Assembly (NCBI RefSeq): GCF_030316135.1
Contig: NZ_CP128185.1
Location: 806,001 to 870,000 of the forward strand
Length of the DNA: 64,000 bases
From: Aliiglaciecola sp. LCG003
Lineage (GTDB): Bacteria; Pseudomonadota; Gammaproteobacteria; Enterobacterales; Alteromonadaceae
Direction: 5' to 3'
The notes under the pieces are model-generated. The model did no database searches, had not been told where the DNA came from, and was given only the letters and a program-made list of their open reading frames with translations. The translations under genes were made by a program, and so were the position numbers. This document shows, piece after piece, positions 2,279 through 18,941 of this stretch (position 1 is the first letter of the stretch; every line of letters begins with the position of its first letter).

Positions 2279-4108
2279 ATGCTCAAACGACTGATCCACA
2301 TAGATACTTCCTTAGATGAAAGTCTGCAAAGCCAGATCCGTAATAAGCTGGTGGAAGGCATTTTGGTTGGTTCTTTTGCCTTGGGCAGTCGTTTACCTTC
2401 GTCGCGTAAATTAGCTGAACAATTAGGAGTGGCACGTAACACAGTGGTGTTGGTATATCAGACGTTGCAAGACGAAGGCTACATCATTAGCAAGGAGCGC
2501 AGCGGCATCTATGTGAATGAAAAGATTCATCAAGGATGGGTGAATGATAATGAATTGCACATGGCTTACCAACCCAAGGCCAGTGACAATCAACATCGCT
2601 TCAAGGGTACATTGCAAGTCACTAATGACACTGCCTGTCCGGCTGACTGGCAGAAATATAGTTATCCTTTTATTGATGGCAAATTCGATGTCTCTTTATA
2701 TCCGGTAAAAGAATGGCGTGATGCCAATCAACAGGCAAACGTAACCCGGGAAATAAACCAGTGGTCGCAATTGCAGGGGCTGGGTGATGACCCCATGCTG
2801 ATTGAGCAAATTCGTACTAAGGTGATCCCCCGTCGAGGAATTCAAGCCAGCAGTGATGAGATACTGATCACCGTTGGCACCCAACAGGCTTTGCATCTCA
2901 TCAGTCAGTTATTTGTCGATGATACGGTGACGGTGGCGGTGGAAGAGCCCGGCTACCCAGAAGTACGAGATTTATTGCAATACAGCGGTGCAAATTTGCT
3001 TTATCAACCGGTCGATGACAACGGTATGCAGGTCAATGAACAATTAGACCGATGCGATATCGTTTACACTACGCCCAGTCACCAGACCCCCACGAGTGTC
3101 ACCATGTCGATGACGCGACGTCACGAGTTGTTGGATAAAGCCAAAGCCCAAGACTTGTTGATAATCGAAGATGACTTTGAATTTGAAAGTAATTTCTTAC
3201 GCCAGCCCCATCCTGCACTGCGTAGTCTTGATTCAGGGAATCGGGTCGTTTACATATCGTGCTTATCGAAAGTGCTGGCATCAGGCATTCAAATTGGTTT
3301 TATCGTGGCCGACTCAGGGGTGATAAGCGAGCTGAAAAAACTGCGTAAAATGACCATGCGTAATCCGCCGTTAAATAATCAACGGGCAGTGGCCTACTTT
3401 CTATCTTTGGGCTACTACGATGCCTTTATGTTGCATTTGCATAAAGTGTTTTTTGAACGCTGGTTGACGCTGCGCGAGGCGCTAAATACCTATTTACCCA
3501 ACTGTATCGATACGGGTCCTATTCAAGGCGGAACGGCCTATTGGATAACTGGCCCGCCGCAACTTGATGGTGAAAACTTGCGTGAAAAAGCCGCCGAGTT
3601 AGGCATTTTAATTGAGCCGGTAAAACGCTACTTCGCCCAAAGCAAACACCCAGAGAACTGTTTTCGAATGGGGATCACCAGTATTCCCAATCATCGAATT
3701 CGAGACGGGGTCAGCAAATTAGCTGATCTTATCCATCAGTTGACAGAAGAGCATGAAGAAAAACTGGGAAATGCCAGTGGTAAGCTTTTGAATGATGAAG
3801 CGCTACGTAAGTGCTTACCAGGCGCACGGCTAGAATGCCAAATGGTTTATGGCGTGCCTTGTACCATAGACTTACTCCCTGACGGCAGTATGTCAGGTCA
3901 TACGGGTGGTATCGGTAGTGAAATAGATACCGGCCACTGGTGGATTGAGAACGGTATGTACTGGCGACAATGGAAATTATGGAGCTACGGCGAGGTGAAA
4001 GGATTTTATGTGATCATGGATGGCGATCAGATGAAATGGTTTGATCAAAATTACAGCTTCGTGCGTCAATTGGATTTAAAAGGTTATCCTGCGACACTGG
4101 ACCAATAG
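2279..4108 (+). CDS. MocR-family transcription regulator with extra C-terminal domain
   Basis: GntR-type winged helix (about residues 10-78, recognition region LPSSRKLAEQLGVARNTVV) fused to a class I aminotransferase-like domain (about 120-490) with the PLP lysine K331 in ISCLSKVLASG. This is the MocR/GabR/TauR architecture, in which PLP and an amino acid act as effector. The usual length is near 480 residues; this protein has 609. The extra ~105 residues (about 505-609) contain a GHWWIENGMYWRQW...FYVIMDGDQMKWF pattern that looks like a small beta-rich domain of the DUF995 kind (tentative). It starts 15 bases after gabT with no clear Shine-Dalgarno, so it is probably co-transcribed. Direct repeats fitting MocR operators lie right after it and before two later transcription units. 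It is probably the regulator of the whole 1-14.6 kb island. Confidence 0.9.
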   Translation: MLKRLIHIDTSLDESLQSQIRNKLVEGILVGSFALGSRLPSSRKLAEQLGVARNTVVLVYQTLQDEGYIISKERSGIYVNEKIHQGWVNDNELHMAYQPKASDNQHRFKGTLQVTNDTACPADWQKYSYPFIDGKFDVSLYPVKEWRDANQQANVTREINQWSQLQGLGDDPMLIEQIRTKVIPRRGIQASSDEILITVGTQQALHLISQLFVDDTVTVAVEEPGYPEVRDLLQYSGANLLYQPVDDNGMQVNEQLDRCDIVYTTPSHQTPTSVTMSMTRRHELLDKAKAQDLLIIEDDFEFESNFLRQPHPALRSLDSGNRVVYISCLSKVLASGIQIGFIVADSGVISELKKLRKMTMRNPPLNNQRAVAYFLSLGYYDAFMLHLHKVFFERWLTLREALNTYLPNCIDTGPIQGGTAYWITGPPQLDGENLREKAAELGILIEPVKRYFAQSKHPENCFRMGITSIPNHRIRDGVSKLADLIHQLTEEHEEKLGNASGKLLNDEALRKCLPGARLECQMVYGVPCTIDLLPDGSMSGHTGGIGSEIDTGHWWIENGMYWRQWKLWSYGEVKGFYVIMDGDQMKWFDQNYSFVRQLDLKGYPATLDQ

Positions 4109-4149
4109 CTTTACTAAAACTGGCCCTATATCTTCTGTTCTGGACCCAT
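4097..4149 (+). promoter_or_regulatory. Candidate MocR operator upstream of the amidase gene
   Basis: Direct repeats CTGGACCAAT (4097), CTGGCCCTAT (4120) and CTGGACCCAT (4140), with start-to-start spacing of 23 and 20 bp. The first box overlaps the stop codon of the regulator gene. The CTGGACC core with a second CTGG 23 bp later is shared with 5067 and 12232. CTGGAC-type direct repeats are known targets of MocR regulators such as TauR. Assignment to the adjacent regulator is inference. Confidence 0.6.
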
Positions 4150-4206
4150 TAGAGTTTCTTATTATCAAAGGCAAACAATCAGTGTTGCCCGAATGCGAGG
4201 AATGTA

Positions 4207-5064
4207 ATGAGTCATTTTGCCATTGCTGGTTTACAACTGGCCTCTTCATACGGAAATAATCTGCAGTCTATCGCTGAAGAAATTGAAAACTGTAAAAAGC
4301 GCTTTCCCTGGTTAGATATGTTGGTGTTGGGCGAGCTAAATAGCTTTGGACCAGAGAAAAAATACGCAGAGCCCATGCCCGGTCCCACCGAAACCTTTTA
4401 CTGCGATCTGGCCAAGCGGCTAGACATTTGGTTGATACCGGGTAGCCACTATGAACAAGATGGTGAGCAGATTTTTAATACTACCTCTGTGATCAATAAC
4501 CAAGGGCAAGTAGTGCGTCGTTACCGTAAAATATTTCCGTTTTGTCCCTATGAAAAGGGCGTAGATAGCGGCACCGATATTGTGGTTTTCGATGTACCTC
4601 AAGGCCGCATAGGTGTGGCTATCTGTTACGATTTATGGTTCCCCGAGCTGGCCCGCAAGATGGCCTGTGAAGGAGCCGAAGTCCTTATCTATCCCACCAT
4701 GACAGGCACTATTGATCGCGCCATTGAACTCAACTTAGCCAAAGCTACTGCGGCCATAAACCAATGTTATGTCATTGCTATTAATACCGCAGGTGAGCTT
4801 GGAAATGGCCAATCTATTTTTGTAGGTCCGCAGGGTAATGCAATCTATATTGCAGGGGATCAGCAAGAAGTCATACCGATTGAGATTGATTTTGCCCAGG
4901 TGCGTCGCGACCGCGAGCGGGGTTTACATAATCTGGGCCAGCCACTTAAGAGTTTCCGTGACAACCAGCACATAATTGCAGGTCTAGACAGTAACTCACC
5001 AAGCGAATTTTTAGACACACTGGGCCCTTTGAGCGTTCCTGACAAAGATGACAACTCAAAATAG
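4207..5064 (+). CDS. Carbon-nitrogen hydrolase (nitrilase superfamily amidase)
   Basis: Cytoplasmic hydrolase of C-N bonds in amides or N-carbamoyl compounds. The Glu-Lys-Cys triad is visible: E43 in VLGELNSFG, K108 in YRKIFPFCPYEKG and C140 in GVAICYDLWFPE. Length (285 residues) is normal for the branch. The ATG at 4207 is preceded by GAGGAA. No signal peptide is seen. The YRKIFPFCPYEKG stretch recalls aliphatic amidase/formamidase branches, but the substrate cannot be named. The gene has its own leader with MocR-type boxes and sits between the GABA operon and the TBDR. A plausible role, by inference, is release of an omega-amino acid or removal of an amide from an imported compound before GabT and GabD. 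Confidence 0.85.
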   Translation: MSHFAIAGLQLASSYGNNLQSIAEEIENCKKRFPWLDMLVLGELNSFGPEKKYAEPMPGPTETFYCDLAKRLDIWLIPGSHYEQDGEQIFNTTSVINNQGQVVRRYRKIFPFCPYEKGVDSGTDIVVFDVPQGRIGVAICYDLWFPELARKMACEGAEVLIYPTMTGTIDRAIELNLAKATAAINQCYVIAINTAGELGNGQSIFVGPQGNAIYIAGDQQEVIPIEIDFAQVRRDRERGLHNLGQPLKSFRDNQHIIAGLDSNSPSEFLDTLGPLSVPDKDDNSK

Positions 5065-5066
5065 TT

Positions 5067-5133
5067 CTGGACCAATAACTGGTTCCAATCTGGTACTACG
5101 AGTCAGGCTTGCTGTGCTCTAATCTGGAACAAC
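5067..5133 (+). promoter_or_regulatory. Candidate MocR operator upstream of the TonB-dependent receptor
   Basis: CTGG boxes start at 5067 (CTGGACCAAT), 5079 (CTGGTTCCAAT), 5090 (CTGGTACTAC) and 5124 (CTGGAACAAC). The spacings 5067 to 5090 (23 bp) and 5090 to 5124 (34 bp) are exactly those found at 12232-12298. The 23-bp pair also occurs at 4097/4120. The last box lies about 30 bp before the receptor ATG. Binding by the neighbouring MocR protein is inference. Confidence 0.65.
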
Positions 5134-5164
5134 ATAATAATAATACGATAACTGGAGTAACACT

Positions 5165-7591
5165 ATGCATTCTGTGAAGTTCAAACACCATTCCATTGCC
5201 AAAGCTATCGCCAGTGCTCTGGTGCTAGGTGCACCTGTATATCAGGCTTCGGCGCAGGAAGCCGGCGCGCAAGATGATAAAATAGTCGAGCGCATTGAAG
5301 TAACGGCCAATAGACGTACTCAAAGCATCCAAGACGTACCCTACAACATATCGGCGATGTCGGGTGAAGAGCTGAAGAATGGTAAAATTCTCGACTCTAC
5401 AGAGTTGCTGCGCAGTATTCCCGGCGCAACAGTGGTGGACCGAGGTTATCGTAATTCTGGTGTGATCAGCGGCGTCGTAATTCGCGGCATTAACGTAGAT
5501 AGCGGCGCACAAGGCGATGTAGCCTTGTCAGCTGTTGCAACAGTCGCGTCTTATGTTGATGACACGCCTCTGCATGCTAATTTTATTCTAAAAGACGTTG
5601 AAATGGTTGAGGTTTTACGAGGACCACAAGGCACCTTGTATGGCTCTGGTTCATTGGCAGGTACGGTCAAATATCGTATGAATAAAGCCGAAACCGATGA
5701 GTTTTACGGCAGTGCAGGCATGTCCTTTGGACAAACCAAAGGCTCCGAAGGCAACAGCCTGAATATGGATGTTATGGTTAACGTTCCTATTAGCGATAAT
5801 TTAGCCTTTAGAGCGAATATAGGCCGCATCGACAACGACGGCATTGTTGATTACACCAATGTGTATCAACTCGACAGTGCCAATTATGCACCCGCCGCGC
5901 AAGATAACGATCTGGCCGCAGGAGGTGTAAGTTTTCGCAGTGTTGAAGACGCCGATACCGTTGATATTGATTACGGACGTGTGTCGTTATTCTGGGAGGC
6001 AACTGAGGACCTGCGACTCAACCTTTCTTATCAAAAACAAAGTGATGAAATCGGCGGCCGTCGTCAAGTTACTCGCGGAACCAATTGGGTAAAGGGTACT
6101 GAACAGCAATATGGCGAGTACCAAAATGGTGCTGTGCTGCTGGAACCATCCGAGCGCGATGTTGACTTAACTGCGCTAGAAGCTGAGTGGGATTTGGGCT
6201 TTGCAACTCTTACCTCTAGCACTTCAAAGTACAATCATAGTGGCGATTCTGTCAGTGATAATACCGGCTTTTACGCCAAACAGAATTGGTTTGCGGACCT
6301 TTATTATGGCTCTCCTCGACCAATGGCACTGGCCGAACGTGGCTACGATGAAGAAGCTTTTGTACAAGAACTTCGCCTAGTATCGAATGAAACCCAAAAC
6401 AACATTGATTGGGTTATCGGTGCTTACTACATGGATCAAGATACTGTTGCTACTCAGGACAGCTATATGCCGGGTTATCAGGAATGGGCTGGTGCAGCAT
6501 TCCCGTGGTGGCCGACTATGGCCGATTTCGGCATGGTTTATACTGACAATGACTTTCATTATGTGCGCACCGAAAATTTCAAAGACAAGGCTATTTTTGG
6601 TGAGTTAACCTATCATTTCAGTGATGATCTGCGCACTAAAATTGGCGTGCGCCGATTTGATAATACCTTTGTCAACAATACCGAATTACTATTACCTATC
6701 TGGCCATTTTTAGGGGCAGAGCCAAGTTTTGAAACTTCAGAAAGTGACACCTTGTTTAAATTCAATATGTCTTATCATATAGATAAAGACACTATGGTTT
6801 ACGGTACGGTTTCAGAGGGTTACCGACGAGGTGGGGCAAATGCAGTACCCCTCAACGGCAGCCTTGCAGAACGACCAGAGTGGCAACAATATGACTCTGA
6901 TAGTGCGGTCAACTATGAAGTCGGGGTGAAAGGTTACTTGGATGGCAATAAACACAGTTATAGCCTATCAGCCTTCAGATTAGACTGGAGCGATCCACAA
7001 TTGAACACCGCATCTACGTGGGGCTTTTTTACTGTCGCTAACGGAGATTCGGCCCGCACCCAAGGTATCGAGCTTGAGTTGCAAGGCTATTTGAGTGACA
7101 ACATTCATTATGTGTTGGGTTATGCCAATGTTAACGCTGAATTAACGGCTGATTTCATTGTGCCGTCATCAGCTACGGCCGAAGCACCTACCCGAGTTCA
7201 GGCGCTAGACGGTGATAGATTACCGGCCTCTCCTAAGCATACTTTGAGTTTGGCCCTTGATTACACTTATGAGATGAGCAATGATTTATATTGGGTAACC
7301 CAAGTAAATACTTACTATCAGTCTGACTCACTCAATTACTTGGGTGATAGTGCTTCGTTGCAAACTGAAATTGGCGGTTTTTCATTGTGGAATATGACCT
7401 CCAGAGTCAGTAGCGAAGTGTGGGATGTGACCTTTTACGTTAAAAATATCTTTAATGAAGATGGTGTTACCGGCCAGTTGCCAGAAGCCTATATGGGAAC
7501 CGACCCTGCAGAGAACTTCTTGGGCAACTCTTCAAAAGATTACATCAGCTTACCCAGAACGGTTGGCGTAGCGTTTAATTATCGTTTCTAG
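5165..7591 (+). CDS. TonB-dependent outer-membrane receptor
   Basis: Outer-membrane 22-strand transporter energised by TonB. An N-terminal signal peptide (about 1-31, ending VYQASAQ) is followed by a short TonB-box-like segment (ERIEVTANRR), a plug domain (about 50-170, with LRGPQGTLYGSGSLAGTVKY) and a beta-barrel ending in the aromatic residue F808 (VGVAFNYRF). Length 808 is ordinary for catabolic TBDRs. The ATG is preceded by GGAG in ACTGGAGTAACACT. It has no iron-siderophore hallmark or Fur box, but carries a MocR-type repeat array in its leader. Import of an organic substrate for the amidase and GABA modules is therefore more likely than iron uptake (inference). A strong hairpin lies just downstream. 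Confidence 0.92.
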   Translation: MHSVKFKHHSIAKAIASALVLGAPVYQASAQEAGAQDDKIVERIEVTANRRTQSIQDVPYNISAMSGEELKNGKILDSTELLRSIPGATVVDRGYRNSGVISGVVIRGINVDSGAQGDVALSAVATVASYVDDTPLHANFILKDVEMVEVLRGPQGTLYGSGSLAGTVKYRMNKAETDEFYGSAGMSFGQTKGSEGNSLNMDVMVNVPISDNLAFRANIGRIDNDGIVDYTNVYQLDSANYAPAAQDNDLAAGGVSFRSVEDADTVDIDYGRVSLFWEATEDLRLNLSYQKQSDEIGGRRQVTRGTNWVKGTEQQYGEYQNGAVLLEPSERDVDLTALEAEWDLGFATLTSSTSKYNHSGDSVSDNTGFYAKQNWFADLYYGSPRPMALAERGYDEEAFVQELRLVSNETQNNIDWVIGAYYMDQDTVATQDSYMPGYQEWAGAAFPWWPTMADFGMVYTDNDFHYVRTENFKDKAIFGELTYHFSDDLRTKIGVRRFDNTFVNNTELLLPIWPFLGAEPSFETSESDTLFKFNMSYHIDKDTMVYGTVSEGYRRGGANAVPLNGSLAERPEWQQYDSDSAVNYEVGVKGYLDGNKHSYSLSAFRLDWSDPQLNTASTWGFFTVANGDSARTQGIELELQGYLSDNIHYVLGYANVNAELTADFIVPSSATAEAPTRVQALDGDRLPASPKHTLSLALDYTYEMSNDLYWVTQVNTYYQSDSLNYLGDSASLQTEIGGFSLWNMTSRVSSEVWDVTFYVKNIFNEDGVTGQLPEAYMGTDPAENFLGNSSKDYISLPRTVGVAFNYRF

Positions 7592-7605
7592 CCATTGGCG
7601 AGACA

Positions 7606-7635
7606 ATTTTGCAGGCTCGATAGGGCCTGCAAAAT
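7606..7635 (+). other. Intergenic hairpin after the TBDR gene (attenuator or processing site)
   Basis: Perfect 11-bp inverted repeat: ATTTTGCAGGC at 7606-7616 pairs with GCCTGCAAAAT at 7625-7635 around an 8-base loop. No run of T follows, so it is not a classic intrinsic terminator. Its position between the receptor gene and the lower-abundance enzyme genes suggests a partial terminator or mRNA stabiliser that sets expression polarity (inference). Confidence 0.6.
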
Positions 7636-7662
7636 ACTTCGTTTTCAAGGGGGGAGCTTGAT

Positions 7663-9297
7663 ATGCTTAACAGCAACAACCCAACCAGTGACAATGCACA
7701 TTTAATGACAAATACAAGCGCGCAAACAGCTGAGGATATACTTGAAGATATTCAGCGATTTATCCAGCTAAAACAGCTCGATAGTGCCCGTTCATTGAGT
7801 CTTCATCTATGTTCAGAACAGCCAGATTTCGCACCTGCTTGGCATGTTGCGAGTGTAATTGCGATGCTGCAAGACAAGCCCGCTCTTGCCTTGCAACATA
7901 TCCACCATGCGCTAACCTTGTTACCTGACAATCAACATTGGCAGTTACACAAAGCTCGCTTGTTATTTATCAATCGTCAGCGTGCTCAAGCTCGCGACCT
8001 GGCAATTACTCTATCCAACAATTCGCACACCTCGGCAGCCTTTTGTGCAGAGCTGGCCTTATTGCTGAATAAACTTGGTTTGCACCAATTATCCCTCGAT
8101 TGCTATGCACAGGCGGTGTCTCTTCAACCAGAAAATGCCCAGTTATTATTTAATTTGGCGTCATTGCAGCGGGTGATGGGAAAACTAACTGATGCTCAAT
8201 GCAGTTTAGACCGGCTAATCAAACTGAATCCTAGAGACAGCGAAGCTTGGCTATTACGGTCTAGTTTGATCAAGCAAACGCCAGAGCATAATCACCTGAG
8301 TGAATTAAATCAGGCATTGCAAAAACAACAACAGGGACCTATCGAACGGGCTCAGCTTTACTATGCACAGGCTAAAGAGCTCGAAGACTTACAGCGTTTT
8401 GATGAAAGCTTTACAGCATTACAGCAAGGTGCGTCGGTTAGACGAGGGAATATGCAATATTCACTCGACAATGATGTGCAATCACTGGAAAAAATAGCAC
8501 AGGTATTCGATGCCAGTGTTTTTGAACAATCCATCGCAGGGTGCCAGAGCCGCGAGCCCATTTTCATTGTTGGTTTGCCTCGTACAGGTAGTACCTTGGT
8601 CGAACGTATTATTGGCAGTCACACTGATGTGCACAGTGCAGGGGAGCTGAATAACTTTGCAATCGAGATGATGCAGCAGGTTCGAAAGACTCTGTCTAAA
8701 CCACCCTCGAATAAACTGCAATTGATTGAAGCAACTCGGCATCTGGATTTCAAGGCTTTGGGCAAGAGCTATATTGAAAGTACCCGCCCAGATACCGACG
8801 TTTGCCCTAGGTTTATTGATAAACTGCCGCTAAATTCGTTGTACATTGGGCTGATCCATCTGGCTTTACCGAATGCTAAAATTGTCTATGTACAGCGTAA
8901 TCCAATGGATACCTGTTTGGCCATTTTCAAGCAAATTTTCACCCAGGGTTATCCATTTTCTTATGATTTGGATGAGTTAAGTCGCTATCAAATCGCTCAC
9001 TACAAGCTTATGGACCATTGGCAACAGGTCATGCCCGGGAAAATTCACACCCTAAGCTATGAAGAATTAGTTGTAGATTTAGAAGGACAAACCAAAGCCT
9101 TATTGGCGTATTGCGATCTTCCTTTTCAAGCGCAATGTTGTGCATTTGAACAGAGCTCGGCAGCGGCCACTACCGCCAGTGCCGCACAGGTACGGCAACC
9201 GGTTTACACCAGCTCAGTGGGTAAGTGGAAACATTACACGGAACAATTGGCTTCAGTGCAAAAACGATTTGAGCAGGCGGGTATAAAGTGCAAATAA
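7663..9297 (+). CDS. Tetratricopeptide-repeat sulfotransferase family protein
   Basis: The N-terminal half (about 25-280) contains TPR-like helical repeats such as ALQHIHHALTLLPDNQHWQLHKA and LSLDCYAQAVSLQPENAQL. The C-terminal half is a sulfotransferase-type domain with the PAPS-binding loop FIVGLPRTGSTLVERII (about 302-318), and a second phosphate-contact region IVYVQRNPMDTCLAIFKQ near residue 410. No signal peptide is visible, so it appears cytoplasmic. The start at 7663 has a very strong GGGGGGAG Shine-Dalgarno. It overlaps the next gene by 10 bases. TPR-sulfotransferases often sit next to TBDR genes in marine proteobacteria and sphingomonads, but the acceptor is unknown. Family call is firm; function in this cluster is not. 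Confidence 0.88.
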   Translation: MLNSNNPTSDNAHLMTNTSAQTAEDILEDIQRFIQLKQLDSARSLSLHLCSEQPDFAPAWHVASVIAMLQDKPALALQHIHHALTLLPDNQHWQLHKARLLFINRQRAQARDLAITLSNNSHTSAAFCAELALLLNKLGLHQLSLDCYAQAVSLQPENAQLLFNLASLQRVMGKLTDAQCSLDRLIKLNPRDSEAWLLRSSLIKQTPEHNHLSELNQALQKQQQGPIERAQLYYAQAKELEDLQRFDESFTALQQGASVRRGNMQYSLDNDVQSLEKIAQVFDASVFEQSIAGCQSREPIFIVGLPRTGSTLVERIIGSHTDVHSAGELNNFAIEMMQQVRKTLSKPPSNKLQLIEATRHLDFKALGKSYIESTRPDTDVCPRFIDKLPLNSLYIGLIHLALPNAKIVYVQRNPMDTCLAIFKQIFTQGYPFSYDLDELSRYQIAHYKLMDHWQQVMPGKIHTLSYEELVVDLEGQTKALLAYCDLPFQAQCCAFEQSSAAATTASAAQVRQPVYTSSVGKWKHYTEQLASVQKRFEQAGIKCK

Positions 9298-10991
9298 TAG
9301 CCCTTTTAGTCTTACTGCTTTGCGTGCTCCCGGCATTTAGTACCCCCCTTGATGAGCTAATGGGTGGGGAATCATCTCTACCAAAACAGCCTCTACAAAT
9401 GGCCGAATTGGTGCCTGACCATGCTAACTCTGATTTACTTGCGGTAAGACAGGGAAAAGTAACACTGGTGATGCAAAAGCATACCGCTAGATTACGCCCA
9501 ATAAATTCGAGAAAGTTAGACTCCAGTGGACGTGAAGTTCTGCCTGATATGGTTATCAACTGGGCACAAAGTGAATTGGGCGAAATTATCCCTGATAAAC
9601 GGCACCTTATCTTGTCTGACAACCCTTATTGGGACTATTTCGTCGGTGTCGGTATGTTGTGGCCTGCACAGCAAAAAAATGGTGTTCGCAGAGTTTCCAT
9701 GCCCTTTGCTCTTGTCGAAAAAAACGAGAATTGTGTACACAATGGTGTTGTGGTGTTTGACATCGATGCAGCTAACAAAGCGCAGCACTTTTATTATCAA
9801 ATAAGCAGTGAAACCTGCGCCTATTTTAAAGCCGATTTTTGGGGAATAGGCGCGACTATTCAAACCCCTGAGGTAGAGCTCGATAGTAAGCAGATCATAG
9901 CGTCATATCATCATGCTAAGCAGCAACGTTTATTCACCCGTCCACTTCGCGCATTGACCGACAAAAACCCGAAGTTGGATGTGGAAAACTTCGGTTTGCC
10001 TAAGGCCGTCGCTGCTACAGATATGAGCGTATTCGGCTTGGTAATCGACGATGTCCATTATGTTTCAGATTGTCAGACACGAGCGGGTCTTTACCCTTTT
10101 TGCGAGCAAATGGTATTACCGTCTTATTCCACGGCAAAGACACTGTTCGCCGGAGTGGCCATGCTATACCTAGAAAAGCAATATGGTGATCTATTCGAAC
10201 AGCCGATTAATAAATGGGTAGCACAGTGCCAAGGAAGTAACTGGGAAGGGGTAACCTTTGCTCATTTGCTTGATATGAGTTCTGGTAATTTCGACTCTGC
10301 AGGTTATGCAGTGGATGAGGCATCGAAACAGAAATTGGCATTTTTCACCGCCAAGAGCAACCAGCAAAGATTGGATTTTGCCTGCAATCACTATTCACGT
10401 AAAAAACCGCCCGGTAGTACCTTTGTGTATCACACCTCGGAAACCTACTTATTGGGTGCAGGCTTGAATGCTTATATAAAGGAAAAGCTCGGTAAAGATG
10501 CGGATATATTTAATGACGTATTACATAAACAAATTTTTCAACCCTTGGGCCTAAGCCAGATAACCGCCGTCACCCGCAGAACCCAGGACAGCACTCAGCA
10601 ACCCTACAGTGGTTATGGATTGTTTTTCAGCCGCGATGACTTGGTAAGACTCATTCGTTTCATTGGGCTACAAGCCAATGCGTCCCAGCAATCTAGCTTA
10701 TTATCCTCAGTTCATCTGCAAGCAGGGTTACAACAAAACCCTGAGAATAGAGGCCTGACGACTGACTATGCCCATATTCGATATCAACACAGTTTTTGGG
10801 CTAAAAAATTCGATAAAAGGTCGGGGTGCAAAATACCATCTTGGGTGCCGTTCATGTCGGGCTTTGGAGGTATCACCTTGGCACTATTGGCCCATGGCAA
10901 TAGTTATTACTATGTAAGTGACAGCCATCAATATGATTGGTCTGAAGCCGTGCCTGAGCTTAATAAACTAAACTTAATTTGTGATAATTAG
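9288..10991 (+). CDS. Secreted serine hydrolase, beta-lactamase/transpeptidase-like fold (paralogue 1)
   Basis: Begins with GTG at 9288, overlapping the sulfotransferase end by 10 bases, with GGCGGG upstream (translational coupling). Residues 1-19 form a signal peptide. An N-terminal region (about 60-200, with PFALVEKNENCVHNGVVVF) precedes a beta-lactamase-like domain with S281-x-x-K284 (SYSTAK) and a Tyr-x-Ser motif in FVYHTSETYLLG. A third motif of the KTG type is not obvious; MSGFGGI near the C-terminus may occupy its place. The family includes class C beta-lactamases, DD-peptidases, esterases and 6-aminohexanoate-dimer hydrolase (NylB). Given the neighbouring GABA aminotransferase and amidase, hydrolysis of an amide- or ester-linked conjugate in the periplasm is a reasonable inference. 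A diverged paralogue lies at 12397. Confidence 0.85.
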   Translation: MQIIALLVLLLCVLPAFSTPLDELMGGESSLPKQPLQMAELVPDHANSDLLAVRQGKVTLVMQKHTARLRPINSRKLDSSGREVLPDMVINWAQSELGEIIPDKRHLILSDNPYWDYFVGVGMLWPAQQKNGVRRVSMPFALVEKNENCVHNGVVVFDIDAANKAQHFYYQISSETCAYFKADFWGIGATIQTPEVELDSKQIIASYHHAKQQRLFTRPLRALTDKNPKLDVENFGLPKAVAATDMSVFGLVIDDVHYVSDCQTRAGLYPFCEQMVLPSYSTAKTLFAGVAMLYLEKQYGDLFEQPINKWVAQCQGSNWEGVTFAHLLDMSSGNFDSAGYAVDEASKQKLAFFTAKSNQQRLDFACNHYSRKKPPGSTFVYHTSETYLLGAGLNAYIKEKLGKDADIFNDVLHKQIFQPLGLSQITAVTRRTQDSTQQPYSGYGLFFSRDDLVRLIRFIGLQANASQQSSLLSSVHLQAGLQQNPENRGLTTDYAHIRYQHSFWAKKFDKRSGCKIPSWVPFMSGFGGITLALLAHGNSYYYVSDSHQYDWSEAVPELNKLNLICDN

Positions 10992-11030
10992 GTGTCTGCA
11001 CCTGTGTCGCCAACTGCTATGGAGAAGTAA

Positions 11031-12215
11031 ATGACTAGCGAAAAAAGCGGCCACCATGCTCAATTAACCAAATGGAAAGTCTCTGCCAATGGAGTATTCG
11101 CCCGTATTTTTTTGGCCTTCTTAACTACCGCAGGGATTTTTTACATCAATATTATGCCTGCTTTGGTCAGTGGCTTAAAACAAGGTTTGAACTTTACCAA
11201 TCAGCAAGCCGGATTTGTCAGTTCAGCAAATTTGTATGGCGCTGCCGCTGGGGCACTTCTAGCGGTTTTTCTCGTTAAACACATTAACTGGAAAAAATGG
11301 GCTTATGTATTACTCATAGCGATTCTGGCCCTTGATTTTGCCAGTATTTTTATCAGCTCGTCGAATCTGATGATCTCAGTCAGATGTGTGCATGGATTGG
11401 TTGGCGGACTGCTGGTTGGCATTGGCTTCGCGGTGATTTCCCGTACCCAAGATGCGGATAAAACCTTCGGGTATTTGTTACTGATTCAATGGGGACTCGG
11501 TGGTTTAGGCATCATGTATCTACCGGCAATGGTGCCTGAGTTCGGCACCTCTGCACTGTTTGTGGCGCTGATGAGCTTCACCTTTGTTTCGCTATTGATG
11601 TTACCCTTTTTACCTGAGTATCCCGTGGCGGCGGTGGACCCTTTGGCATTGGTAAAAACCTCGGTTAGGCGCAAACCTTTGATACTCAATTTAACCGCAA
11701 TATTCTTGTTTCAGGCTGCCAATATGGGCTTGTTTGCCTATGTAATTGGTTTGGGCAGAGCGCAAGGATTGACGATGGAATTTATGAGTCCCGCATTGGC
11801 AAGTGCTAGTTGGGTAGCGTTATTTGGTTCTTTACTGGTGATCCTCATAGGCACAAAGTACGGTCGCGCGATTCCACTGATAGTAGCTATTCTATTAACC
11901 GCGTTGTGTAGTTGGGCGCTGATATATAGTGAAATTGCCAGCGTATACTTGCTAGCGAATGTGATTATCGGCATTACCTGGGCTTTCGTCTTGCCCTATA
12001 TGTTTGGTATCTGTTCTGAGCTTGATAAAGCTGGGCAATTGGCTGCGTTAGGCGGGTTTGCTTCAAAAATGGGCTTAGCCTCTGGCCCCATGGTGGCTGC
12101 ATTTATGTTAACCGAGGATGATTATCAACTAGTCATCTACGCCGCTGCTGGTGTGCTGATTGTCGCCGCTGCAATGGTATATATGCCTGCTAGGCTGTTA
12201 GATAAGTCCAAGTAA
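11031..12215 (+). CDS. MFS transporter
   Basis: Inner-membrane permease of the major facilitator superfamily, 394 residues with about 12 hydrophobic segments, short for the superfamily but within range. The loop after TM2 carries KHINWKKW rather than the canonical GxLaDrxGrk motif, so family assignment beyond MFS is uncertain. The start ATG at 11031 has GGAG eleven bases upstream and follows the serine hydrolase by 39 bases, so the two are co-transcribed. It sits between two secreted hydrolases and downstream of a TBDR. It probably imports the small product released in the periplasm (inference). Direction and substrate are not determined. Confidence 0.85.
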   Translation: MTSEKSGHHAQLTKWKVSANGVFARIFLAFLTTAGIFYINIMPALVSGLKQGLNFTNQQAGFVSSANLYGAAAGALLAVFLVKHINWKKWAYVLLIAILALDFASIFISSSNLMISVRCVHGLVGGLLVGIGFAVISRTQDADKTFGYLLLIQWGLGGLGIMYLPAMVPEFGTSALFVALMSFTFVSLLMLPFLPEYPVAAVDPLALVKTSVRRKPLILNLTAIFLFQAANMGLFAYVIGLGRAQGLTMEFMSPALASASWVALFGSLLVILIGTKYGRAIPLIVAILLTALCSWALIYSEIASVYLLANVIIGITWAFVLPYMFGICSELDKAGQLAALGGFASKMGLASGPMVAAFMLTEDDYQLVIYAAAGVLIVAAAMVYMPARLLDKSK

Positions 12216-12231
12216 TGCAGGGCTTTTATGG

Positions 12232-12298
12232 CTGGACCAAAGCAGGTCAAACAACTGGTTCTATGTTCTGATGGTTAAATTACCTATGCTGGATTGAG
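12232..12298 (+). promoter_or_regulatory. Candidate MocR operator upstream of the second serine hydrolase
   Basis: CTGG boxes start at 12232 (CTGGACCAAA), 12255 (CTGGTTCTAT) and 12289 (CTGGATTGAG), spaced 23 and 34 bp, identical to the spacing upstream of the TBDR at 5067/5090/5124. An imperfect CTGATGG lies at 12268. The precise repetition of geometry in two separate leaders argues against chance. The binding protein is inferred to be the MocR regulator at 2279-4108. Confidence 0.65.
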
Positions 12299-12396
12299 TG
12301 GATTTGTAGCAAGATTTAGCGCTTAAATCATAGGATGTGTTGGGCTGATGAATCTGTAAATCCTGTCAGCAACGATAATCGCACAGGTACATACTT

Positions 12397-14565
12397 ATGA
12401 TTAGCACAAAACAGTTCATACTACTTCTGGGGATACTCCTCAGTTGCCAAAGTAGCGCCGATATAATCTTCAATGATGACTTTCAAGACGGTAACTTCAG
12501 CGGATGGGTCATCAGTGGCTCAGGGAGTGCCGCCTATGCAAATAATTATGCCGGCAATTACTCTTTAAGACTGCGCAATAATAAAGCCGCCACACATACC
12601 TTTTCCACTGCCAATTTTACTGCAGTTTCAATCACTACCAGTATTGCTGCAGCATCCCTTGAGTCTGTGGAACAATGCGTTGCACAAGTTTCAGTTGACG
12701 GTGGTAGTAACTGGACAGCCATCAATACTGTGGTAAACGGCCAAGACGACGGAGTCACTTTGTACACTAACTCCGCGTCGCCAACGGGCATAGATAACAA
12801 CAGTCAAGTGGCTGTTCGTTTAAAAGCCCAAGGCAATAATAATTCTGATTACTGTTATTTCGATGACATTGAAGTTAGCGGCACCTCGAGCGCCACACCG
12901 CCTTCGTGTGATTACGATTGTTTGTCAGGTTCAGGCACGGTGTCGCGCTCTGAACTGAGTTATAGCACTTTGCAAAGCGCCGCAACGGGGACGTTAGTTG
13001 ACATGTCGGCTTTTACCTTACCGAGTAACGCAGCTAATCCGACTAATAACTTCCAGGGAAACCTGAATTTTACAGCGGTTGTGCGAGGCTGGGGGAGTGT
13101 TAAGGATAGTTACAATTATGCGGCTATTACTGATATCAAGAAGCTACCTGATTTTAGTTATGAGTTTGTTCAGCACGGCAGCCATCTAATTCCAGTCGAT
13201 CGAGGTTTGCAGATCACCAGTCATTACTTGTGGCAGCTTATTCTTGAACCCGGTCGCGTTTGGGACGAAAGTGCTGACAATGGTTACAGCCGAGCCAGTA
13301 TTCCTTTTGCCCTGCAAGAGTATGGTGCTAATTGCACCCACAATGGGGTATTAACTTTCCTGTTTAAATCAGACGGCTCTATGTCCAAAGTAGCCTACGA
13401 AATCGCCTCTGAAACCTGTGAATATTATCAGTTCAATTCGTGGGGTAGGTTAGATGCTAGTTATACACCCGCAGCGGTGACAAACGCAGGGCAAATCAAA
13501 AGCGACTATGAACAGGAAGTGTCTAATCGGATGTTGATTAAACCTCTTTCCGCTTTGGCAACCGATTACCCTAGCGCAGGCCTTAGCATAGCGACCCTTG
13601 GTAGTGAACAAACTGCGGCCAATCGATCGGCTTTTGGTGTTGCCTATAATGGAGTGAACTATGTGGCTGATTGTGACACCAGACAAGGTGTCTATCCCTA
13701 TTGCGAAGTGATGAGTTTGCCTTCCTATTCAGTGGCTAAGTCGACCTTTGGCGCTTATGGCCTGATGGCGCTGGAACAGCTATATAGCGGAGCGAAAAAC
13801 GCCAGTGTTGCCAGCTATGCGACAGGCTGCTCCAGTTCGCAGTGGACAGATGTTAGTTTGGAAAATGCGCTGGATATGGCAACGGGCAATTATACTTCTG
13901 CTGGTTTTGAAGTAGATGAAGCTTCTAGCGCTATGGCCAACGGCTTTTTTCTGGATTACACCGACAGTGGCAAGACATCTTTCAGTTGTAGTTACACACG
14001 ACAAGCTACGCCCGGCACCAGTTGGGTATATCACAGTAGCGATACCTATTTGCTTGGCAAAGCGATGGACCAATACTTGGGACAAGACACCTACAACTGG
14101 TTGGTCGACTATTTGTATAAACCTTTGGGATTGAGTCCATCAACTTATACTACGGTTAGAACCTTTGATGCAGCCAGTCAGGCCATGGCAGGGTTTGGAT
14201 TGACCTATCACGTGGATGACCTGGTTAAATTAGGTGAACTGCTGAATAACGACAATGGCAACATCGGTGGTACTCAGAAGCTTAAAGTGTCCATGGTGGA
14301 TGAAGTACTGCAAAATACTAGCTATCACGGCTTGAATGCTGGCACTAACGTCGATTCCTATGACAACGGCTTCTGGATTTGGAAAGCCGACGCAGCGCTG
14401 GGATGTAGCGGCGATTTATACATCCCTTATATGTCCGGATTTGGTGGTATAGGTGTAGTATTACTGCCGAATAATATGCTGTATTATTTTGTCAGTGACA
14501 ACAACGAGCACAGCTTCGTAAATAGTGTTGCAGAGTTAGATAAGCTAGGGGATTTTTGTAACTAA
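12397..14565 (+). CDS. Secreted serine hydrolase with N-terminal beta-sandwich domain (paralogue 2)
   Basis: Signal peptide (about 1-20, ending QSSADI). Residues about 22-168 form a Thr/Ser/Asn-rich domain (FNDDFQDGNFSGWVISGSG ... CYFDDIEVSGT) resembling jelly-roll binding modules. A short Cys-containing linker follows, then a region homologous to the hydrolase at 9288. Shared signatures are IPFALxExxxNCxHNGVLTF, FGVAYNGVNYVADCDTRQGVYPYCE, S445-x-x-K448 (SYSVAK) and WVYHSSDTYLLG. At 722 residues it is longer than its paralogue mainly because of the extra module. Its own leader carries the MocR-type repeats, and a terminator follows it. It is presumably periplasmic or extracellular and acts on the same or a larger substrate (inference). 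Confidence 0.85.
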   Translation: MISTKQFILLLGILLSCQSSADIIFNDDFQDGNFSGWVISGSGSAAYANNYAGNYSLRLRNNKAATHTFSTANFTAVSITTSIAAASLESVEQCVAQVSVDGGSNWTAINTVVNGQDDGVTLYTNSASPTGIDNNSQVAVRLKAQGNNNSDYCYFDDIEVSGTSSATPPSCDYDCLSGSGTVSRSELSYSTLQSAATGTLVDMSAFTLPSNAANPTNNFQGNLNFTAVVRGWGSVKDSYNYAAITDIKKLPDFSYEFVQHGSHLIPVDRGLQITSHYLWQLILEPGRVWDESADNGYSRASIPFALQEYGANCTHNGVLTFLFKSDGSMSKVAYEIASETCEYYQFNSWGRLDASYTPAAVTNAGQIKSDYEQEVSNRMLIKPLSALATDYPSAGLSIATLGSEQTAANRSAFGVAYNGVNYVADCDTRQGVYPYCEVMSLPSYSVAKSTFGAYGLMALEQLYSGAKNASVASYATGCSSSQWTDVSLENALDMATGNYTSAGFEVDEASSAMANGFFLDYTDSGKTSFSCSYTRQATPGTSWVYHSSDTYLLGKAMDQYLGQDTYNWLVDYLYKPLGLSPSTYTTVRTFDAASQAMAGFGLTYHVDDLVKLGELLNNDNGNIGGTQKLKVSMVDEVLQNTSYHGLNAGTNVDSYDNGFWIWKADAALGCSGDLYIPYMSGFGGIGVVLLPNNMLYYFVSDNNEHSFVNSVAELDKLGDFCN

Positions 14566-16678: not shown

Positions 16679-17434
16679 CTAGCGCTTTTTCTCCTTTGAT
16701 TTTTTAGTCGATTCTTTAAATCTGTAGCTGTCATTCCCCGTTTCGATGATGTGGCAATGATGGGTTAACCTGTCTAGCAAGGCTGTTGTCAGTTTTGCAT
16801 CACCAAACACGTTTGACCATTCAGTGAAGTTCAGATTGGTGGTGATAAGTACGCTGGTTGTTTCGTAGAGTTTACTTAATAAGTGAAACAGTAAGGTGCC
16901 GCCTGCTTGACTAAAGGGCACGTAGCCTAATTCATCCAACACGACTAGATCACAATTCGCTAAACGATTTGCCATGCGGCCAACATGGCCCGCTTGTTTC
17001 TCTAACTCAAGCGTATTGACCAGTTCAATTGTGGATAAAAAGCGTACGCGATATTGATGGTGCTGAATGGCTTGCACTCCAAGTGCTGTCGCCAAATGGG
17101 TTTTTCCTGTGCCAGGGCCACCAACGAACACCGCATTTTGACAATCTTCAATGAACTCGCAACGATGTAAACCTCTGATGAGGTATTCATCGACTTCACT
17201 TTCGCTGAAGTCGAAGCCATAAATATCTCGGTAAACAGGGAATCTGGCCGTCTTCATTTGGTAGGCGATGCTACGCACTTCTCTATCGGCCACCTCGGCT
17301 TTTACGAGGGTATCGAGTATGGGTAAGGCTTGTTTATAGGCGGGTGAATCTTGCGAGGTTAACTCGGCAACACTGCTTGCCATGCCGTGTAGTTTAAGTA
17401 TTTTAAGAGTGTGTAATAAGGCTTCAGTGTGCAT
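16679..17434 (-). CDS. istB: IS21 helper ATPase IstB
   Basis: AAA+ ATPase related to DnaC that assists the IstA transposase in target selection. The Walker A motif is [13 protein letters not shown] (about residues 103-115) and the Walker B region is [14 protein letters not shown] (about 163-176). Length 251 is normal for IstB. It overlaps the 3' end of istA by 11 bases, the usual coupled arrangement. It lies inside the IS bounded at 16589 and 19045 and looks intact. Confidence 0.95.
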
Positions 17435-18941
17435 GACGTTTTCCTCTTAATGTGTCGTAGCGTGATGTGTCGCTGGTCGGTTCGGTGACTAATTGCAGGC
17501 CGTTAATAATGGGGACTGGCGCAGGGGCTGAAGGGGCAAGTAGCCGACTCAGGCAATTCATAACATGTTGTTTGGAAGGACATCCCACATCTAAGGCCAT
17601 TTCAACCGCCTTCACGACATCGGCTTCATCGTGATGTAATATCAGCGATAACACCTCAACCATCTCCTTATCTCCACGCTCACGTTGCAATAGAATGGAT
17701 TGCAGGTGTTTAAAGCTATCGGGCATGGTGTTGAACGGTGCGCCATTGCGAAGTGCGCCCGGTTTACGCTGCGCGACAAGCAAGTAGTGTTGCCAGTCAT
17801 ACACGACTTTCCCCGGTATATCATGGCTGCTCATGAACACGCGGTTGTGCTCCGCTATTTTCTGGCCCTGCGCAATGAAGGCAAGTCGGCCTGGATAAAC
17901 TTGCAGGCTGATACGCCGGTTAGCGAAGCTAGCGGGCACAGAGTATTTATTGCGGTCGAAGTTGACTAAGCAGGTGGAAGATACCTTTTTCGTGTGCTCA
18001 ATGAAGCCATCAAAGGGGGCATTCACCTTCATCAGCTGCCGCTGCTCCTGATACCACACATCCTCAATGGTGCTATCTCTAAACTGCGGGTGCTTGCGTG
18101 TTTGCCAGTCTTTTATACACGCATTCTCCAGCCAATCATTGAGTTCGGTGAGTGAGCTAACACGCGGCAGGCGTTGCCAGATAACCGAGCGGGCATCACG
18201 TACATTTTTCTCTACCTGGCCTTTTTCCCAACCCGCCGCCGGATTGCAGAAGTCAGCTTCAAACAGATAATGACTGACCATAGTCAGGAAGCGGCGATTA
18301 ACAATGCGCTCTTTCCCCCTTTGCACCTTATCAACCGCTGTTTTCATGTTGTCGTAAATACCACGCTCGGGCACGCCATTGAACACCCTAAACGCATGAT
18401 TATGGGCATCAAACAGCATTTCATGGCTTTGGGTAAGATAGGCTCGCAGGATAAAGGCTCGGCTGTGACTGAGTTTGAAATGAGCGACTTGCAGCTTGGT
18501 TTTACGGCCATCGATGAAGGCATAGTTTTCACCCCAATCGAATTGAAAGGCTTCACCTGCGGCAAACTCTAATGGCACGTAAACCTGATTAGATGCAGCT
18601 AGTCGCTGCTCTTCACGCCACTTGCGTGCAAACGCAGCAACCCTGTCATATGAGCCTGAATAGCCAAGCGGCAATAAGTCCTCATAAAGGTTTTTAACGG
18701 TTTTGCGCTCTTTCCTGCGCCGCCTGGCTTCACGTTTAAGCCAGCTAATAAGCAGTTCTTCGAACTCGTCGACTTTGCCCAAGGTCTGCCGCTTAGTGTA
18801 AACAGGCTCAGCAATGTCCTTTTTGAGATAACGACGTACTGTATTGCGAGACAATCCAGTGCGTTTAGTAATTTCTCGTTGGGACAGCCCATCACGAAAA
18901 TACCATCGACGCATAACACTTAATAATGACACATCTATCAC
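17424..18941 (-). CDS. istA: IS21-family transposase IstA
   Basis: DDE transposase that cuts and joins the IS ends. An N-terminal helix-turn-helix ([22 protein letters not shown], about residues 17-38) is followed by the rve-type catalytic core: first Asp in FQFDWGE (about 134), second in [12 protein letters not shown] (about 198), and Glu in [13 protein letters not shown] (about 240). Length 505 is ordinary. It begins with GTG at 18941 behind a GGAG-rich leader. No frameshift is seen, so the element may be mobile. Confidence 0.95.

Follow-up and report, generated by a model that had tools for sequence, protein, structure and literature searches.

Paired direct repeats as candidate operators of a MocR regulator at three promoters of an uptake and hydrolysis gene cluster in Aliiglaciecola sp. 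LCG003

A 64,000-nucleotide stretch of the probably marine bacterium Aliiglaciecola sp. LCG003 (contig NZ_CP128185.1, positions 806,001 to 870,000; referred to here as the window) encodes a MocR-type regulator. The regulator belongs to a gene cluster in the order gabD, gabT, MocR, a carbon-nitrogen hydrolase family amidase, a TonB-dependent receptor, a TPR/sulfotransferase protein, serine hydrolase 1, a major facilitator superfamily (MFS) transporter, and serine hydrolase 2. Upstream of the amidase, receptor, and hydrolase 2 genes, two CTGG boxes are repeated in direct orientation ahead of a predicted -10 element. Judged by comparison across related genomes, these boxes are likely to be operators of the adjacent MocR, which would act as a TauR-style activator on two direct repeats and drive uptake and hydrolysis promoters that have no -35 element.

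CTGG boxes were located at positions 4097/4120, 5067/5090/5124, and 12232/12255/12289 of the window, as the original prediction, made from the sequence alone, had placed them. In all three leaders 23 bp separate box 1 from box 2, and in two leaders a third CTGG follows box 2 by 34 bp (5124 and 12289). The pattern CTGGACC-N16-CTGGNNCTA had three matches in the window and none in 100 shuffles, while the looser CTGGNNC-N16-CTGGNNC had five matches genome-wide, three of which were the leaders studied (reversed control, one). The composite CTGGNNC-N16-CTGGNNCTA-N21-TANNNT was found exactly three times in the 4.41-Mb genome, always in this cluster; the motif is therefore not scattered at random over the genome, and the regulon in this genome appears to be local, with three promoters. 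Seven other composite matches each contained two mismatches (reversed control, three matches). A motif match at 1048244 from the genome-wide scan was set aside, as it apparently lies inside a coding region. No Rfam match was found for leader RNA in 3900-12500, and the boxes sit upstream of the -10. A sigma-54 reading of CTGGCAC was dropped, on inspection by eye, because no -12 element lies at the right distance.

In 36 fetched loci, 34 with a MocR carrying the C-terminal extension described below and two without, a pair match was allowed at most one mismatch in ten to twelve fixed bases. From the 102 matches obtained, 94 lay no more than 400 bp upstream of a cluster gene. The eight excluded were single rows from L041, L121, L122, and L130 and two from L135 (lacking a same-strand cluster gene in the next 400 bp, or lacking one entirely), a match in an overlapping register in L130, and one match at the extreme start of L134. 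Alignment of the 94 sites on box 1 gave WWCTGGNNCNAT at offset 0, AAWCTGGYNCTA at offset 23, and T53, A54, and T58. TAnnnT began at offset 52, 53, or 54 in 15, 63, and 9 sites, respectively (87/94), with at most five sites at any other offset between 36 and 75. The sites had been selected without use of the -10, and after thinning of similar sites 72 of 76 still had TAnnnT at 52-54, against a control mean of 1.5. For TTGACA at a 16- to 18-bp spacer, four of six bases were matched in 11 of the 94 sites and five were never matched, the same as in shuffles, and a sigma-70 promoter search gave no match in any of the three leaders. The end of box 2 falls within this -35 slot, which is without consensus. 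A constant distance from box to -10 together with the lack of a -35 consensus points to the layout of a promoter requiring activator contact at the -35 region, from which we infer activation.

The pair was present upstream of the amidase gene in 31 of the 33 loci having that gene, upstream of the receptor gene in 31 of 33, and upstream of hydrolase 2 in 19 of 24. It was rarer before the MFS gene (9/32) and hydrolase 1 (2/11) and, within one mismatch, was found in none of the upstream regions of the sulfotransferase gene (0/24), gabT (0/19 measured), or gabD (0/18); gabD, which had been put forward as a possible target, is thus not supported as one. Autoregulation through the pair was rejected as a general rule, as only one of 36 MocR upstream regions matched (L120).

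To identify whether the motif accompanies the regulator more widely, as the proposal of a candidate regulon tied to the adjacent MocR implies, 246 genomes of the family were scanned for CTGGNCC-N16-CTGGNNCTA and for MocR relatives (E value of 1e-100 or better). The pattern matched 46 times and its reversed form five times. MocR was present in 35 genomes and the motif in 31, both occurring in 25, the motif alone in six, and MocR alone in 10; the motif was thus found in 25/35 genomes with MocR versus 6/211 without (Fisher P = 9.5e-21, uncorrected for kinship of the genomes), which bears out the proposal. In all six motif-only genomes the site had no -10 where one would be expected, and in four it lay inside an open reading frame (ORF). 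Two sites unlinked to the cluster were also seen: that in G172 has a -10 and lies upstream of a hydrolase 2 homologue (43% identity), and the predicted regulon of that genome extends outside the cluster, while that in G157 has no -10, lies inside an ORF, and looks like a chance match.

Spacings of CTGGNNC pairs between 13 and 46 bp were counted in locus groups hand-picked from identity and matched range. In 44 extended-MocR loci, the 23-bp spacing occurred 101 times and every other spacing 1 to 15 times. Among 35 loci from relatives that lack the extension, 23 bp again ranked first (n = 30), ahead of 39 bp (n = 22), a multiple of three that presumably reflects coding; the distant MocRs (34 loci) gave only five counts at 23 bp. 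The full composite was found in 38/44, 10/35, and 0/34 of these loci, respectively. L137, L139, and L148, whose contigs are equal in length to those of L109, L114, and L131, were taken as duplicates of these and omitted from the count and the tree. L147 and L149 were also omitted from both and L151 from the count; these three are not shown to be copies, and all carry site pairs. A quick tree built from 115 MocRs placed the extended proteins in one group of 45 with a support of 100, among which 37 had the composite within 4 kb, two the pair alone, and six neither. The last six comprise L127 and L128, with one-mismatch pairs, L112 and L113, with more distant sites, and L141 and L142, which have none and go against the rule. 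Comparison thus bears out the box pair, its spacing, the position of the predicted -10, and the tie to this MocR clade. Non-extended MocR relatives (L225-L226, L158, L164, L165, L169, and L172; Halomonas, Cobetia, and Pseudomonas) carry the same pair before other genes, often with a -10.

The regulator is a protein of 609 amino acids with a GntR winged helix (PF00392; 50.3 bits, cutoff 27) and a fold-type I aminotransferase-like domain (Aminotran_1_2, PF00155; 37 bits, cutoff 19.7). K331 and R463 are invariant across 34 orthologues and would be the putative pyridoxal 5'-phosphate (PLP) lysine and carboxylate arginine, respectively. Using Foldseek, matches to GabR and PdxR structures were obtained, with 7zla at the top. 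The regulator is also encoded in Alteromonadales relatives and by a few assemblies from Xanthomonadales, Woeseiaceae, and alphaproteobacteria; Colwellia piezophila (L138) has the cluster as well. The extension carries invariant G/W/R positions and had no Pfam match (three proteins searched) and no PDB sequence match (best E value, 0.42). In the full-length model it is predicted to be all-beta (residues 500-601, approximately), the block of residues 501-600 having a predicted local distance difference test (pLDDT) score of 76-94. Modelled alone it was poor (pLDDT, 51.8), with a lipocalin-like structure (3hty) as the best Foldseek match at an E value of 0.18, and therefore no fold is claimed. 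When 60 related genomes were searched with an extension profile, seven had a match, one each and always at the position of this regulator. It is conceivable, although we think it rather doubtful, that this is a two-input MocR, in which the PLP domain would sense an omega-amino acid end product while the beta domain would respond to a further ligand, for example, the amide or oligomer taken up, the TonB-receptor uptake route being opened only when both agree.

Among characterized systems, TauR is the closest in operator style. TauR is an activator whose boxes are CTGGACYTAA direct repeats, as given in the accessible text of PMC5320631, where MocR operators are defined as repeated boxes that have a TGG/TGT core and lie roughly a whole number of helical turns apart, and direct repeats are common; the boxes found here have that core and spacing, in keeping with the MocR subfamily, and are of the CTGGACYTAA type. 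The likeness to TauR repeats that had been proposed therefore stands. A Sinorhizobium pSymB MocR beside tauABC (36% identical) has, upstream of tauA, the boxes CTGGACTCAT and CTGGATATAA at a spacing of 22 bp, and from its neighbours it is presumably TauR. The operator style is thus TauR-like but the regulon is different: the targets are others, with no tau gene among the nine cluster genes, the boxes are 23 rather than 22 bp apart, and the MocR has a C-terminal extension. The tauABC-linked protein (L217) fell outside the 45-member extended clade, paired with L180, in the quick tree, which included this one such protein. GabR of Bacillus subtilis and the proteobacterial GabR/OapR share the domain layout, the PLP-domain fold, and gabT/gabD neighbours; however, gabT and gabD are not targets here, and the GabR box is given as ATACCA in the accessible part of PMC4494728. 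The best NCBIfam model was PdxR (NF052282; 327.5 bits, cutoff 320, matched range 16-481), and there is a structural match to Bacillus clausii PdxR (7zla and 7zn5). However, none of the nine annotated cluster genes is a pdx gene, the extension lies beyond the matched range, and the three exact genomic sites precede amidase, receptor, and hydrolase genes rather than genes of PLP biosynthesis. Because the target genes do not support PdxR, this label is likely an overcall in automatic annotation. In the literature searched, which left most subscription papers outside its coverage, no earlier description of this regulon was found.

Under the preferred reading, a MocR dimer would bind the direct repeats WWCTGGNNCNAT and AAWCTGGYNCTA, which at 23 bp are about two helical turns apart and would have their centres near -62 and -39, counted from the start site that the -10 implies. 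Box 2 would lie over the -35 position, with the TAnnnT -10 at a fixed distance, making a class II-like activator-dependent promoter. With a PLP-linked ligand, perhaps an omega-amino acid freed from an amide-linked substrate, MocR would hold RNA polymerase at a promoter that is weak by itself. Three promoters would be so controlled: that of the amidase gene, that of the receptor gene (with read-through probably serving the genes for the sulfotransferase, hydrolase 1, and the MFS transporter), and that of hydrolase 2. The resulting pathway would run from outer membrane uptake through secreted hydrolysis and inner membrane uptake to cytoplasmic amide cleavage, and its products would feed the adjacent, separately controlled gabTD.

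The original prediction had taken the third CTGG as part of a MocR-bound three-box operator (23 plus 34 bp) and as a novel arrangement. Besides the two leaders that have it, this is favored by positions 5118-5133 of the receptor leader, which are 81% alike over 16 bases to the box 2 region at 5084-5099, and by the three direct boxes recorded for four MocR regulogs and 18 regulons (Table 2 in the accessible text of PMC5320631), a precedent that also removes the novelty. However, the amidase leader lacks a CTGG at this place, the receptor leaders of both closest congeners lack it, and the 34-bp spacing occurred six times against 101 for 23 bp in the extended-MocR loci. A CTGG was found at offset 57, 34 bp after box 2, in only five of the 94 sites and at offset 56 in four more. 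All nine begin 4 bp into the TAnnnT -10, at offset 57 where the -10 is at 53 and at 56 where it is at 52. As the CTGG shifts along with the -10, the supposed third box is thus the predicted promoter element, TAnnCT followed by GG (TAATCT|GG and TATGCT|GG), and a three-box operator is very improbable. The amidase leader has a different extra box, CTGGACCCAT, overlooked in the original prediction, which lies 20 bp downstream of box 2 and might weaken the promoter; at this offset (43) it is kept only in the amidase leaders of four close genomes (L036, L037, L038, and L108). An additional CTGG was seen at offset 12 in the receptor leaders of L036 and L037.

That MocR is instead a repressor which occupies the -35 region until released by its ligand appears unlikely, even though box 2 overlaps the -35 slot, a further box abuts the -10 in the amidase leader, and EnuR is a MocR repressor (accessible text of PMC8739950). 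The -35 slot scores no higher than shuffled DNA does, so little basal promoter would be available for repression; the two boxes precede the -10 with constant phase; and TauR (PMC5320631, as far as accessible) and GabR (titles of 4mgr and 4n0b) are activators. Reading of the boxes by another regulator, for example, the product of the LysR-like ORF upstream of and divergent from gabD (L036 4457-5371), is very improbable: the gabD upstream region lacks the pair, sites are kept where the fetched stretch has no gabD (for instance, L110-L112, L115, L116, and L124), related-MocR loci with different neighbours have the same spacing, and motif presence tracks the MocR tree. Chance or coding constraint, which the overlap of the box at 4097 with the end of the MocR frame in this genome might suggest, is refuted by the shuffle, genome-wide, spacing, and co-occurrence counts and has a negligible probability; box 1 lies beyond the end of the MocR frame in some orthologous loci, for instance, L037-L039. 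Several points nonetheless weigh against activation by this MocR on two boxes. The case for activation is promoter geometry, MocR factors may also repress, as does EnuR (PMC8739950, in its accessible text), and the extra box at 4140 covers the spacer and could repress. L141 and L142 encode an extended MocR without any site, and L136 is also without one. Because box likeness reaches relatives of the MocR clade, a second regulator of equal specificity is conceivable, as is a weak species-specific contact at 5118-5133, given the resemblance of that segment to the box 2 region.

The features of the window are listed in Table 1. The sulfotransferase gene, which has no box pair of its own, is probably read through from the receptor promoter. 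A 13-pair hairpin was seen at 7606-7635, directly 3' of the receptor gene, and possibly thins this read-through. For hydrolase 2, no Pfam match was found at an E value of 0.001. The products of gabT (573 bits, cutoff 507) and gabD (678 bits, cutoff 646; full gene at L036 5469-6926) passed the NCBIfam models for gamma-aminobutyrate (GABA) transaminase and succinate-semialdehyde dehydrogenase, respectively. The gap between gabD and the divergent LysR-like gene (L036 5372-5468) is AT-rich and free of CTGG, and gabDT may have its own regulator. A receptor, two secreted-looking hydrolases, an MFS transporter, a cytoplasmic amidase, and GABA-type enzymes hint at an amide-linked omega-amino acid compound as the substrate; going by family names and gene order alone, we regard this substrate class as possible without favoring it. 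A link to nylon oligomers (6-aminohexanoate) was set aside, as PDB matches of the hydrolases were weak and a literature search, with most subscription papers outside its coverage, returned no paper joining MocR with 6-aminohexanoate. Farther along, at 16679-18941, two adjacent minus-strand ORFs resemble, by eye, an IS21-type ATPase/transposase pair.

Table 1. Coordinates of the regulator, the predicted promoter elements, and the cluster genes in the window
Feature	Position	Strand	Remark
MocR regulator gene	2279..4108	+	609 aa; GntR winged helix, aminotransferase-like domain, C-terminal extension
C-terminal all-beta (predicted) extension of MocR	3776..4105	+	Approximately residues 500-609; without a match in Pfam
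Amidase promoter box 1, CTGGACCAAT	4097..4106	+	Shares bases with the final MocR codons in this species
Amidase promoter box 2, CTGGCCCTAT	4120..4129	+	3' end overlaps -35 slot
Extra box, CTGGACCCAT	4140..4149	+	20 bp after box 2; abuts amidase -10
Predicted -10 TAGAGT, amidase promoter	4150..4155	+	
Amidase (carbon-nitrogen hydrolase family), putative regulon member	4207..5064	+	Pfam CN_hydrolase, 125.6 bits
TonB-receptor promoter box 1, CTGGACCAAT	5067..5076	+	
TonB-receptor promoter box 2, CTGGTACTAC	5090..5099	+	
Predicted -10 TAATCT, TonB-receptor promoter	5120..5125	+	With GG, forms CTGG at 5124-5127
TonB-dependent receptor, putative regulon member	5165..7591	+	
TPR/sulfotransferase_3 protein	7663..9297	+	No box pair of its own
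Serine hydrolase 1, beta-lactamase fold family	9288..10991	+	Pfam Beta-lactamase, 46.5 bits; signal-peptide-like N terminus (by eye)
MFS transporter	11031..12215	+	
Serine hydrolase 2 promoter box 1, CTGGACCAAA	12232..12241	+	
Serine hydrolase 2 promoter box 2, CTGGTTCTAT	12255..12264	+	
Predicted -10 TATGCT, hydrolase 2 promoter	12285..12290	+	With GG, forms CTGG at 12289-12292
Serine hydrolase 2, putative regulon member	12397..14565	+	Homologue of hydrolase 1 (34.6% identical in residues 250-722)

Overall, an uncharacterized MocR gains a defined putative operator, promoter layout, and target set, and a two-box operator code is told apart from a promoter element mimicking a third box, a pitfall of reading motifs by eye. 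The findings would link a MocR to TonB-dependent uptake and secreted hydrolases, hint at an amide-containing nutrient, and draw attention to an additional domain, without a Pfam counterpart, in a PLP-type regulator. As the same box pair precedes other genes in MocR relatives without the extension, the code appears to be a wider one.

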